This document shows, piece after piece, positions 1 through 31,892 of a DNA stretch of 35,481 nt; the stretch's first letter is position 1; each line of letters begins with the position of its first letter. The DNA lies in IMG/VR virus record IMGVR_UViG_3300034283_000161, positions 1-35,481 of that record; one strand, written 5' to 3'. The notes under the pieces are model-generated. The model did not search any database. It was not told the origin of the DNA and saw only the letters and a list, made by a program, of their open reading frames with translations. Origin of the DNA: a virus. The position numbers and the translations under genes were made by a program.

Positions 1-760
1 CTCCTGGAGTTGTATGATAAACCCATCCTTCATTTGTTCCAAATGTTATTGTTGCATTTGATCCAACGAATACATTGTTGTAAACAGTTCCACCCATTTG
101 CATTCCGAACGGAAGATTCATTTGAACCCCAGCATCATCTACTCCAGCCAAAACATTTGTGCTAGTTCCAATAGTGGCTTGTAAATTGTTGACTGCTGTT
201 TGGGCAGCATCAATAGCAAGGTTTGCTTGAGTTAATTCGGTTTGTGCAGTTGCTTGTGCTGTAGATGCGTCTGTTTTTGCTGCAACGGCTTCAGATATTG
301 CTGTCTGAGCCTCTGTTATTTGTGTTGTTATATTATTTATGGCGGTAGTTGCAACAGTTACTGTAGCCTTTGCATCTTGAACTACCTGAGAACTTTGATC
401 TATTGGGGTAACAGATAAATCAACATTATTAATAGTATTAATAGCGGTTTGAACATTATTTATTTCTGCATTAGCCAGAGATATTTTTGTGGCTACCTCT
501 GCTGTAATACCTTGGGCTTGGGAATATTCGGTTTGTGCTTGTGTTACCTCTACCAATGCCGTTTCAGTGGCTGTAATGGCTTGCTGAACCTCTGTAGTAG
601 CGGTTGCAAGTGCTGTATTAACTGCCTGTTGAGCAGGACTAACAACAACTTGCTCTTGATTTTCTGTGGCGCCAGCATGATCTGGTGCCATTATGCCAAA
701 GATTGTTACACATAAACCCACCCCAAAGGCTATTATTAGTTTACGTTTAAAACTTGTCAA
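1..760 (-). CDS. Exported coiled-coil protein, partial (C-terminus beyond window start)
   Basis: A minus-strand frame is open from a TTG at 760 to the first base of the window (253 codons, no stop). The TTG follows an in-frame TAA at 763-761 and has a GGAG 11 bases upstream, which fixes this start. Residues 1-31 form a signal peptide: basic start (TSFKRK), hydrophobic core, and an AGA cleavage site before TENQ. Residues of about 40-180 are rich in Ala, Thr and Gln with repeated AQTxxxxA patterns, likely a long helical or coiled-coil stalk. Residues of about 185-253 turn into a beta-rich, Gly/Asn-rich segment (GGTVYNNVFVGSNATITFG) that looks like the start of a globular or binding domain. The opening SFKR resembles that of the exported protein just upstream. 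Function unknown; a surface or adhesion role is inference. The plus-strand ORF at 449-715 is a shadow. Confidence 0.8.
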   Translation of the reverse strand, partial: MTSFKRKLIIAFGVGLCVTIFGIMAPDHAGATENQEQVVVSPAQQAVNTALATATTEVQQAITATETALVEVTQAQTEYSQAQGITAEVATKISLANAEINNVQTAINTINNVDLSVTPIDQSSQVVQDAKATVTVATTAINNITTQITEAQTAISEAVAAKTDASTAQATAQTELTQANLAIDAAQTAVNNLQATIGTSTNVLAGVDDAGVQMNLPFGMQMGGTVYNNVFVGSNATITFGTNEGWVYHTTPG

Positions 761-834: not shown

Positions 835-866
835 TAAAAAAAAGGGTAGAAATTAATCTACCCTTT
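835..866 (-). terminator. Rho-independent terminator after the exported surface protein
   Basis: A perfect 10-base-pair stem (841-850 paired with 857-866, loop AATTAA) is followed on the minus strand by a run of T (plus-strand A run ending at 840). It lies 17 bases past the stop of the 883-2571 gene, the right place and orientation to end its transcript. Confidence 0.85.
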
Positions 867-882
867 AATTTAAAGAAATTAA

Positions 883-2571
883 TTACCTCTTTTTAAAACC
901 AGTTGGACACTTTGGGCTTACCGCTGTGACTTTTTTGGTTGATTTACCTTTGACACATGTAATTGTAGTCTTAGGAGCAATCATTAATTGAAGTTGTTCA
1001 ATTTGCTTTGTAATAGATGCAATAAGTGCTACAATTCCATTAAGGACATCAGCATTGCTAGTTGCGCCATCGGCAATCTTGTAAGATACAGTTTTTGCTG
1101 CATCAGTTGCTACATAGGCTGGAAGATCTACGATCATATTGTATGCACCGTTGACATTGCCAACAGTAAATCTATATGTCTTAACACCCTGAGCAAATGT
1201 ATCTGCTGAAGTAGGAGCAGCAATTGCTGTCAATCCACCACCAGAAATGGCAACGCCACTTCCAACTGTAGATGAATCTGCAACTTTTGCACCATTAACA
1301 TCTGTAGCAGAGATTGTCAATGTAGCAATTTCTCCTGGAACATAAGAGTTCTTGTCAAGAGATGCTGTGTACTTATTGACACCAAGACCACAAGCAGCAA
1401 TAAACTCGTTTGAGTAAATTTCAGATAGATCTGATAGTACATGCTTGATTCTTACAATAGAAGAACCAGATGTAGCAGCGCATGTCCAACCACCAGTTTG
1501 TACTGCTGTAGCAGATGATGCTCCACCTACTGAAACTGCAGTAATTTGAGAAGTATATTTTGTGGTATCAGCGGTTGGAGTAATTCCAGCCAATTGATTA
1601 CCAGCAGCATCTCTAACTACAAAGTCATAAGTTCCTGTACGTGCTCCATTAGATAATGCAATATCCACTCCTGTTACGGAAATTGATGCTGCACGACCTG
1701 AAAATGCAATACTTTTAGTTGCAAGAGTTGTACCATTAAAAGTAATTGTAATTGTTGTATTTACTGGTTTGTTTTCATTTGCAGTTCCTTGAACTACATA
1801 TAAAACTCCAGAAGTACCTGTTTTTGCTGCTGTACTAACCTGTGTGCTTGGAGCAGCATCCCATGCTACTACCGCACCATTAGTTGCAGTTGCTTGAATT
1901 ACACCGTTAGTTGATAGTTGTGCTGCATAAGCATCCATTGCACGAACGTTTACGTATCCAGTTCCTGCATTAGTAACAAGTGTTGCAGTTGCAATATCTG
2001 CGTTAGACGTTAATGTTCCTGCTGTTGCTGAATCTTGTACACGAACATAAGAATCTGCTACAGACAAAACGTTTGTTTTTACGGTTGTTCCAGCATAAAT
2101 AGTTTTAATATCAATAGTAGAAGTGGTTGATCCAACTTTCTTCTTTTGTGTTACCGTTACGGTACCTGCACCATTAATAGTCAACTTAACATTTGTTGGC
2201 AGTGTAACTGCTGTTGATGTTGTTGCTGTAAAAGTAAAAAGTTTACCTAAATTGGTAAGTGCTGCTCCAGTAGGGTTTGACCCTGCTGCAGTATAGTTTG
2301 TAAATGTTGCAGGACCTGATATTTCTAAAGATACGTTATCGTCTGCGGTTGATGCTAATGTGTCTGATGTTGTCAAAGCAACAACAGCATTAACGCCAGC
2401 CTCAGCCTTTGTTGTATCTGTAAGAACGGTCACTCCATAAGCACCGCTAGCCAGTGTGTCGGATAATACATATCCAGCACTTACTGCTGCCTGTGCTTGA
2501 GGAATTGCAACAAAAAATGTGCTTGTTAGGGCTGCAGCCATAACTAAAGCGACTCTTTTAAATGAATTCAT
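883..2571 (-). CDS. Exported Ig-like/S-layer-like surface protein with host-type C-terminal motif
   Basis: 562 residues from ATG 2571, with a strong AAGGAG seven bases ahead. Residues 1-28 are a clear signal peptide (MNSFKR, hydrophobic core, cleavage after AQA). The mature part is rich in Thr, Ala, Val, Ser and Gly with alternating beta-strand patterns, resembling bacterial Ig-like or S-layer proteins; Cys is rare. Near the C-terminus (about 505-530) is an amphipathic helix (IVALIASITKQIEQLQLMI), then a basic tail with two Cys (TITCVKGK ... SPKCPTGFKKR). I recall very similar tails on secreted proteins of freshwater actinobacteria, so it is probably a sorting or wall-binding signal borrowed from the host; this memory needs a search. 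The gene follows terL by 16 bases and ends at a strong terminator. Possible roles are remodelling the infected cell surface or blocking further infection; a virion role is less likely given the signal peptide. Confidence 0.8.
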   Translation of the reverse strand: MNSFKRVALVMAAALTSTFFVAIPQAQAAVSAGYVLSDTLASGAYGVTVLTDTTKAEAGVNAVVALTTSDTLASTADDNVSLEISGPATFTNYTAAGSNPTGAALTNLGKLFTFTATTSTAVTLPTNVKLTINGAGTVTVTQKKKVGSTTSTIDIKTIYAGTTVKTNVLSVADSYVRVQDSATAGTLTSNADIATATLVTNAGTGYVNVRAMDAYAAQLSTNGVIQATATNGAVVAWDAAPSTQVSTAAKTGTSGVLYVVQGTANENKPVNTTITITFNGTTLATKSIAFSGRAASISVTGVDIALSNGARTGTYDFVVRDAAGNQLAGITPTADTTKYTSQITAVSVGGASSATAVQTGGWTCAATSGSSIVRIKHVLSDLSEIYSNEFIAACGLGVNKYTASLDKNSYVPGEIATLTISATDVNGAKVADSSTVGSGVAISGGGLTAIAAPTSADTFAQGVKTYRFTVGNVNGAYNMIVDLPAYVATDAAKTVSYKIADGATSNADVLNGIVALIASITKQIEQLQLMIAPKTTITCVKGKSTKKVTAVSPKCPTGFKKR

Positions 2572-2587
2572 TTTTCTCCTTGTTTGT

Positions 2588-4372
2588 TTATATTAAGTTA
2601 AGTTTATCCAAGAAATCCTTGACATCGTCAGGTATTTCCCGATTATCCAATTCTACCACACGTTGTTGTTTTTCCGCAAGTCGAGTTGCAGAACTCCAAG
2701 TATGGACATCTATCTCTGTATTATTAGTCTTTGCTGTATGGGATATTGCTCCAAATACTGCCCCACAAACAGCATCGGCTAAATCTTTTGATTTTTTACG
2801 GGGGTGATCAACCCTATTACCTTTCATTATTTTTAATTCTGACATTTCTTCAAGTAAAATTGGAATCATTGGGATAGCAACACGTTCTTCATAAATCATC
2901 ATAGCCAAATCTTCATAGTGTTTTTTAGCAACTGATACAGTTTCTGTCCTAATTCCAACAGCCTGCAACTCATTTTGAATATCAAAAGACTGCCAACGGT
3001 CAAATGAAACCATGCCAATATTAAAACCTTCTCTGCGAAGATTTATGATCCATTGTTTTACTTCTGACAAATTAACTGGGCCTTCTGCTCTTGGTTCCCA
3101 CCAGGCAACGGCATCAACAATAACGATTGGGGCAACTTGCTCGTAATCTTTGATTACTTGAATGTTTACCCATTTATCTACGTGAGCAATTGCTACTGCA
3201 CACTTGTCATGTTTTTGTGCAAGGTCAGCATGAATGTAATAGACCTTGTCTGGATCTGGTTTAAAGGTTTCATCAAACCTTCTAAAAGCATCTAAAGGGT
3301 TTCTAGTATTCATGCATTTTTCTAATTTTTCTTTTTGTTTAAAAAATGCATCAGAAGCAAACGTTGGAACACAAGCAAAACGCATCATAGCATCGCCCAG
3401 GTCTGTATAAAAGGCTAGTTTAAAATCATCAATTTTTCTTGTTGGGTTTACTTCCCATGTTGGTCTTTTAAGTGCTAAGATTCTTGGAACTTTATAAGAA
3501 ACTATATGATCTTCTTCCCAAATAATTTCAAATTGATTGTTTGGATCATCATGTGGCAATTCTTCATTCATAATAAAAATATGTTTTTTTTCAATAGTTT
3601 CTTTTTCCATAATTACATCATCATATCTTTTAGAAATAAAATCTCCTTGATAACGAGGGAATGAAAGCAGCACAACCTTACCAAGATCTGGGAAACGAGA
3701 ATCTACAGAGCCACGAAAGGCTTTATAGATATTTTCTGCAGTCTTACCTTGTTCATTACCAGTGCCAACTTCACTAGCAAAACCAGAAATTTCATCAAGC
3801 ACAGCAAGCAACAAATTCAAACCTTCATGTGACTCTCTTTCTGAGTGACCAGAATAAACAGTAATTGATTTATCAAACTCAACGCTGTCAGCCTTTGCGT
3901 TATATTTTCCTGCGAACCATGGTGACTTTTCAATTTTAGTTTTAAAACCTTTAAAGAATACGTTCTTTGCTTGTTGTGCATTAATAGCAACGTTAATTAA
4001 ATCTATTGCGTCTCCTGATGGCTTACCAAAATATTTTGCTGGATCTTTAAGACATAGTAGTTTGTATACTATGTATGCACAGGCTACTGTAGATGTAAAG
4101 TCTTTACCGCTACCCTTGCCAAGTTGAAGAATAATTTCATTTTTAGTATATTTATCATAATACCTTGCTCCTTCTACAGAGCCATACAATTCTTGTAAAT
4201 CTTCTTTTTTATATATTTGACTCATTGCCTCTACAATGTCATACTGAATAGAAGACAATGGTGGTTGACCAAGATAATCAGAAGACTCAACAAATGTTTT
4301 AGCGTCTACTGGCTTTTCTTCAAATTGATTCTCTTTTAATACCTCTAGAAAATCATTGAACATCGTGGACAA
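2588..4372 (-). CDS. terL: Terminase large subunit (packaging ATPase and nuclease)
   Basis: Cuts concatemeric DNA and drives it into the prohead. 594 residues from TTG 4372; an ATG three codons later (4363) is the alternative. The ATPase half has Walker A GKGSGKD (residues 85-91) and Walker B LLLAVLDE (D193, E194). The C-terminal RNase H-like nuclease shows three acidic sites in the usual order: IHADLA (D383), SFDRW (D458) and KDLADA (D530/D533). Length is normal for the family. It overlaps the end of the small subunit gene by 20 bases, so the two are translationally coupled. Unusually, it lies downstream of the replication genes and is followed by exported proteins rather than by a portal gene. 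Confidence 0.95.
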   Translation of the reverse strand: MSTMFNDFLEVLKENQFEEKPVDAKTFVESSDYLGQPPLSSIQYDIVEAMSQIYKKEDLQELYGSVEGARYYDKYTKNEIILQLGKGSGKDFTSTVACAYIVYKLLCLKDPAKYFGKPSGDAIDLINVAINAQQAKNVFFKGFKTKIEKSPWFAGKYNAKADSVEFDKSITVYSGHSERESHEGLNLLLAVLDEISGFASEVGTGNEQGKTAENIYKAFRGSVDSRFPDLGKVVLLSFPRYQGDFISKRYDDVIMEKETIEKKHIFIMNEELPHDDPNNQFEIIWEEDHIVSYKVPRILALKRPTWEVNPTRKIDDFKLAFYTDLGDAMMRFACVPTFASDAFFKQKEKLEKCMNTRNPLDAFRRFDETFKPDPDKVYYIHADLAQKHDKCAVAIAHVDKWVNIQVIKDYEQVAPIVIVDAVAWWEPRAEGPVNLSEVKQWIINLRREGFNIGMVSFDRWQSFDIQNELQAVGIRTETVSVAKKHYEDLAMMIYEERVAIPMIPILLEEMSELKIMKGNRVDHPRKKSKDLADAVCGAVFGAISHTAKTNNTEIDVHTWSSATRLAEKQQRVVELDNREIPDDVKDFLDKLNLI

Positions 4373-31200: not shown

Positions 31201-31833
31201 TTATGATTGTCCAAATGTACGATCTACGATCTTACCATAGGATCCTGATGTGTCTTCAGGTAGAAGACGGAATGAAACTTCAAACATAGATGGCTCATCA
31301 CGCTTTGCGGATACGGTTACGTTCTCAATTGATAGAGCACGGTATGCTGTATAAACACGTTCAACGGAATCAGAAACATCGCAGTCACCAGTTCCTGCAC
31401 CAACAGCAACGATTCCTCGTTCTACTGGGCATTCTCCAAGTTCACCTGCTGATAGATCTAATGTTCTACCTGTAGATGCTGACTTATTACCTGTAAGTTT
31501 TGAATCAGGGAATGCTAATGCATAAAGCAAGTTTTCTAAAGTTGCTTCAGCAAAAGCGGTAGCAAGATTAACTTGCATACCTTGCTTATATAGTTTTGCA
31601 ACGTCTAAAATTTGGTCTACCTGGACTTCACCGAAGTCTGGTTGGAACTGCAACTCTAAACCGTTCATGGTATAACCTACGTTAGTATAATCTAAATCAT
31701 CTGATAGTGTATCTTTAAAAGATTCGCTAGCATCAAATGACTCCAGTGTTCCTGGAGTTAAAGTTGTATCAGCAATAAAAAGCGCTGCTGCGCCAACGAT
31801 AATATTATTCGACGTACCACGGCTATATGGCAT
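31201..31833 (-). CDS. Major tail protein (tail tube)
   Basis: 210 residues. The start is ATG 31833 (MPYSRGTSNN), since GAGGTG lies six bases ahead; a GTG at 31842 is part of that ribosome site. The chain is acidic and beta-rich with a conserved-looking ring surface: IVGAAALFIADTTL, then LEFQPD-like segment ELQFQPDFGEVQVDQILDV, a loop with two Cys, and an end VSFRLLP. Size, position between the tail terminator and the chaperones, and the strong terminator following it all fit the tube protein, the most abundant tail component. Confidence 0.8.
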   Translation of the reverse strand: MPYSRGTSNNIIVGAAALFIADTTLTPGTLESFDASESFKDTLSDDLDYTNVGYTMNGLELQFQPDFGEVQVDQILDVAKLYKQGMQVNLATAFAEATLENLLYALAFPDSKLTGNKSASTGRTLDLSAGELGECPVERGIVAVGAGTGDCDVSDSVERVYTAYRALSIENVTVSAKRDEPSMFEVSFRLLPEDTSGSYGKIVDRTFGQS

Positions 31834-31892
31834 ATTGTTCACCTCTTTCTTAGTATTATTAAGTTGTTCGGCGTTTGTGTTTCCTCAACTCA

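Follow-up and report, generated by a model that had tools for sequence, protein, structure and literature searches.

Gene organisation at the locus

The window, i.e. the whole stretch of viral DNA that was analysed (35,481 nucleotides), carries on its minus strand a gene for a protein of 562 amino acids (P0001), the ORF of which follows the stop codon of the terminase large subunit gene (terL) after a gap of 16 nt. The features of this locus are the following:

2588-4372, minus strand: terminase large subunit (terL; PHROG terminase large subunit), directly upstream of the 883-2571 ORF
2576-2581, minus strand: Shine-Dalgarno-like motif AAGGAG, seen in the sequence
883-2571, minus strand: P0001, phage homologue of a probable host exported surface protein, 562 amino acids, ATG start, coordinates including the stop codon
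2488-2571, minus strand: predicted Sec-type signal peptide, residues 1-28, cleavage between AQA and A (rule-based check; aligns with the host signal peptide)
1063-2073, minus strand: predicted tandem Ig-like domains, at about residues 167-291, 293-396 and 396-503 (AlphaFold2 and VIA-align)
979-1056, minus strand: C-terminal helix, residues 506-531, common to host proteins (alignment and AlphaFold2)
886-966, minus strand: two-cysteine tail TITCVKGKSTKKVTAVSPKCPTGFKKR, residues 536-562, with Cys 539 and Cys 555, a predicted beta-hairpin mini-domain
841-866, minus strand: intrinsic terminator directly 3' of the gene, a 10-bp stem followed by a T-run
2-760, minus strand: second predicted exported protein (signal-peptide rule), cut by the window end, 677-869 amino acids long in relatives

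A profile scan identified 152 IMG/VR stretches encoding relatives of P0001, i.e. about 150 phage relatives. Among relatives, (i) the position right after terL is kept in 44 of the 47 relative loci in which it could be tested, (ii) a Shine-Dalgarno-like motif is present in 61 of 65 relatives, and (iii) a terminator-like hairpin follows the gene in 61 of 65 relatives, the one of the window having a minimum free energy of -17.2 kcal/mol (z -5.4). The gene is under purifying selection, with dN/dS values of 0.12-0.20 against close relatives. An artefactual ORF was considered and is ruled out by the number of relatives and by this selection. P0001 has no significant family match in Pfam, PHROGs or NCBIfam.

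In most relatives, a second exported protein is encoded after the P0001 homologue. In one of them (L016, 7795-10311), this protein ends in NIGADMSPQERQDAKEVLVAAVLVGQ, and its NIGADMSP segment matches the very C-terminal ends of exported host proteins, a weak match found in several host genomes (E 1e-5 to 2e-4). A weak match to the second exported protein was also observed in a host genome, within an open frame of 16,932 amino acids (G018:C57:106955-107155).

Domain architecture of P0001

The N-terminus of P0001 (MNSFKRVALVMAAALTSTFFVAIPQAQA, followed after the cleavage site by AV) satisfies a simple signal-peptide rule, which was applied in place of a trained predictor and asks for a basic n-region, an uncharged hydrophobic stretch and small residues at the site. 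Among the 33 ORFs of the window plus the truncated neighbour, this rule is passed by P0001, by the neighbour (2-760) and by the ORF at 31201-31842, a tail-module protein that is probably a false positive. The cleavage site, PQA[QS]A[AS] or a one-letter variant of it, was found in all 67 distinct full-length relatives. A model of P0001 calculated by AlphaFold2 with 29 homologues (mean pLDDT 69, the first 75 residues being poorly modelled) consists of strands, the helix at residues 506-531 and a C-terminal hairpin. An initial annotation, made from the letters alone, had described an exported-type ORF adjoining terL, with an AQA signal peptide, a beta-rich body, an amphipathic helix and a basic two-cysteine tail; this description is borne out by the sequence, the signal-peptide rule and the model.

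Within the Ig-like region, a pair of cysteines (Cys364/Cys394) is invariant in the phage family and is also present in a host protein (L278). The fold matches of the whole protein are generic Ig matches, the best PDB match being an adhesin and S-layer proteins scoring lower, and a PDB sequence search with the phage family gave no match. Pfam and NCBIfam detected no S-layer anchoring domain such as SLH in P0001. As no known anchoring domain is present, P0001 is not filed here as a known S-layer family, and its anchoring would need to be of another type.

Homology with host exported proteins

P0001 shares 33% identity with a Nanopelagicales protein over 583 columns, from the signal peptide to the helix (BLASTP, E 6e-45). 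Four strong homologues (G020, G181, G140 and G048; E 6.5e-28 to 1.5e-41) were retrieved from 296 Nanopelagicales genomes with the phage profile; two further matches were weak. Furthermore, a wider host family, present in 105 of the 296 genomes and mostly with one match each, is related to the phage family in a profile-profile comparison (hhalign, probability 99.5%, E 1.9e-22, 260 columns). This host family, with the N-terminal signature MSTKTxxKRxALVAVAALGxG, shares with P0001 the signal peptide, the Ig-like body, a DKxSYxPGE motif and the C-terminal helix, whereas the phage copies form a clade of their own and are sited after terL. Roughly one third of the phage copies terminate in a two-cysteine tail, which none of the inspected host family members has. 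In the tree, all phage proteins fall into a single clade (SH-aLRT 100) next to the four close host proteins, the finer placement being unsure on account of long branches. On the basis of these sequence comparisons, P0001 is probably an exported protein homologous to a host surface protein. The infected host probably belongs to Nanopelagicales-type actinobacteria; the identification of the actual host is only tentative, since close homologues occur in only 4 of the 296 genomes.

The genomic context of the host gene is recurrent. In brief, a sigma factor gene, the host gene, an O-antigen-ligase-like gene and then a UDP-sugar dehydrogenase gene were found in G013, G015, G181 and G020; Pfam supports all three neighbours (sigma factor, Wzy_C and dehydrogenase) in G181, the sigma factor and Wzy_C in G013, and Wzy_C alone in G020, the remaining identities being based on sequence likeness and position. 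In G048, the host gene adjoins a sigma factor gene within a sugar-biosynthesis cluster. Such a placement is expected for a glycosylated surface protein, and the host family may form an S-layer. The phage gene sits after terL and not at a sigma factor, O-antigen ligase and UDP-sugar dehydrogenase locus; it is a homologue of the host gene, not its orthologue by position. A prophage origin of the host copies was considered and rejected, the copies of G048, G181 and G013 being located among sugar-biosynthesis and housekeeping genes.

The recurrent locus (L269 in G048, L322, L323, L324 and L325) represents a candidate glycosylated surface-layer locus of Nanopelagicales. In the open-licence literature searched, no paper was found that treats Nanopelagicales and S-layers together.

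The two-cysteine tail

P0001, which has a predicted signal peptide, ends in a tail of 27 residues, four of them after the CPxG motif; this tail conforms to the pattern TI[TS]CxKGK...V...CPxG[YF], seen at the extreme C-terminus of exported-type proteins. A scan of genome contigs with helix patterns gave no matches; a scan with the tail only did. With a 28-position tail profile, the tail was found in 199 of 291 Nanopelagicales genomes, with up to 23 copies per genome (23 in Planktophila lacus). Among 296 Actinomycetota genomes drawn evenly, the sole match was P. lacus itself (none in the other 295), and some lake MAGs titled Acidimicrobiia or Microbacteriaceae also have the tail. Of the bacterial tail ORFs that the fetched loci contain completely, 76 of 77 have the tail at most 8 residues from the C-terminus, and a signal-peptide-like start is seen in 57 of the 77, compared with 111 of the 262 remaining ORFs, these counts being approximate because ORF starts were taken mechanically. 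Tails of the phage family reach matches of up to 96% with bacterial tails (query tail from L014). The initial annotation had described such tails as widespread on secreted proteins of freshwater actinobacteria (Nanopelagicales and relatives) and had suggested searching for them; the search agrees with this for Nanopelagicales, the tail being rare or absent in other Actinomycetota. Modelled alone with 33 tails, the tail reaches a pLDDT of 91; it had no PDB fold match (best E 1.6) and no family model in Pfam or NCBIfam.

Within the phage family, the tail is carried by 21 of 67 distinct full-length members, and the family tree requires at least three gains or losses of it. In the other 46 members, the helix forms the C-terminus, as is the case for the host homologues, and the tail is therefore to be regarded as a swappable add-on and not as the basis of the system. 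The proposal that the phage uses a host targeting tag is thus retained in part: the tail is of host type, but so is the whole protein, and most of the family does without the tail.

Four phage contigs outside the family also have the two-cysteine tail, on other proteins (L195, 4059-5084; L196, 3855-5087; L197, about 3014-4252; L200, 3924-5090); the tail-bearing protein of L196 has a Trypsin match in Pfam.

The phage lineage

P0001 and its relatives are encoded by large freshwater phages of one family. Stanwilliamsviridae (Streptomyces phage Yaboi and relatives) have a terL about 54% identical and share the replication gene order, but lack a homologue of the 883-2571 gene after terL (Yaboi); no homologue of this gene was found among 50,697 records of isolated phages. 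In a 111-kb relative (G001), a replication block stands between the gene and the structural module. WhiB-like transcription factors, which have been put forward as a key marker of actinophages (PMC10202952), are encoded in two relatives (L272, 2708-2992, minus strand; L061, 10691-11017). Downstream in relatives, a CHAP endolysin, a holin-like membrane protein and an S8-like protease are encoded. The S8-like protease genes were observed 3' of the lysis genes in L016 (12446-13300) and L024 (11035-11955).

Possible function of P0001

Taken as a whole, the data are best explained, with a likelihood slightly above even, by a host-type coat protein placed on the infected cell and most likely altering or masking receptors there. 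The phage gene would be related to a Nanopelagicales surface-coat (S-layer-like) protein, and P0001 would be exported through the host Sec pathway, would show its tandem Ig-like domains outside the cell and would be retained at the surface by the C-terminal helix, with the two-cysteine mini-domain added in this sub-lineage. The variant subunit would most likely hide or replace the receptor surface of the infected cell, with less superinfection and fewer progeny lost to infected cells or debris as a consequence. Export, surface location and an anchoring role of helix and tail are what we infer from the sequences, display of P0001 on the infected cell being likely. A role in superinfection or at the receptor is put forward more tentatively, at somewhat less than even chance, and receptor masking itself is conjectured. 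S-layer proteins serve as receptors for phages elsewhere among bacteria (PMC10100898), which makes masking or replacement the likeliest use. Against such a role, the neighbouring lysis genes allow late expression of P0001, and a coat made late in infection would be of little help against superinfection.

The main alternative is a coat variant that shields the infected cell against grazing by protists, or preserves its integrity, up to lysis. According to PMC7669872, which cites Tarao 2009, planktonic actinobacteria possess an S-layer that raises their resistance to grazing, and the same role has been proposed for phage S-PM2 (PMC2984593). The present evidence fits receptor masking equally, however, and the host presumably already has a coat of its own, so that grazing protection is considered unlikely, if the best placed of the alternatives. 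P0001 might instead be set free when the cell lyses, acting as a soluble decoy or as a wall factor of the lysis phase. This would suit the endolysin, holin-like and protease genes downstream in relatives, and also the fact that other phages carry this tail on exported proteins, trypsin-like ones among them; but a helix common to host homologues fits retention better, and the gene has its own terminator and stands apart from the lysis genes, which makes this reading a little less probable still.

Phage structural proteins often contain Ig-like domains, many BFVD matches of P0001 are phage Ig or tail proteins, and the gene adjoins terL, all of which would be in line with a virion part (head decoration or fibre) whose N-terminus merely resembles a signal peptide. 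On the other hand, the n-region, the hydrophobic stretch and the small-residue site are kept in 67 of 67 relatives, the homology with exported host proteins extends along the full length, the replication block of G001 separates the gene from the structural module, and the gene is absent from isolated phages related by terL; a virion role thus appears improbable, about as much as release at lysis or slightly more so. Finally, capture of a host gene that lacks any selected function in the phage, as the clear host homology might suggest, is very hard to reconcile with a single, well-supported clade of about 150 known relatives, the low dN/dS, the conserved position after terL and the frames intact across the family.

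Beyond the favoured reading of a host-type coat protein, it could be envisaged, as a rather unlikely extension, that these phages build a substitute coat from a variant of the host surface-layer protein, choosing among host C-terminal retention signals, which would be the helix, the two-cysteine tail and the NIGxDMSP-type ending of the neighbouring protein. If so, these phages would use host surface sorting as a set of exchangeable parts against rival phages or grazers.

Comparison with known systems

Nanopelagicales rank with the most abundant bacteria of freshwater. The analysis points to a widespread host surface protein with a glycan-gene neighbourhood and to a short C-terminal tag, without a family model, carried by up to 23 proteins per genome; versions of both are found in one phage lineage, so that the handling of the host surface by Nanopelagicales phages can now be addressed on named genes.

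Tandem Ig-like domains like those predicted in P0001 occur in the S-layer proteins SbsB, SbsC and Sap and in FdeC/invasin adhesins, but these have no PDB sequence match to the phage family and the likeness is one of generic fold. Among phages, a phage-encoded S-layer-type protein of S-PM2 was proposed to protect against infection or grazing (PMC2984593); it is related via an S-layer homology domain, whereas P0001 has full-length homology with host proteins and no such domain according to Pfam. Similarly, gene_23 of methylophage Melnitz encodes a putative S-layer-type protein (PMC9004378), proposed to alter host receptors against superinfection and comparable to P0001 by annotation only. The idea of phage S-layer-type proteins is therefore already known from S-PM2 and Melnitz, which qualifies the initial statement that no phage system built on this tag had been described: the tag is absent from both proposals, but S-layer-type phage proteins had been proposed before. 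In summary, within the open-licence literature searched, what appears to be new here is the full-length homology of a phage protein with a host surface protein that has a traceable locus, together with the interchangeable C-terminal signatures of host type.
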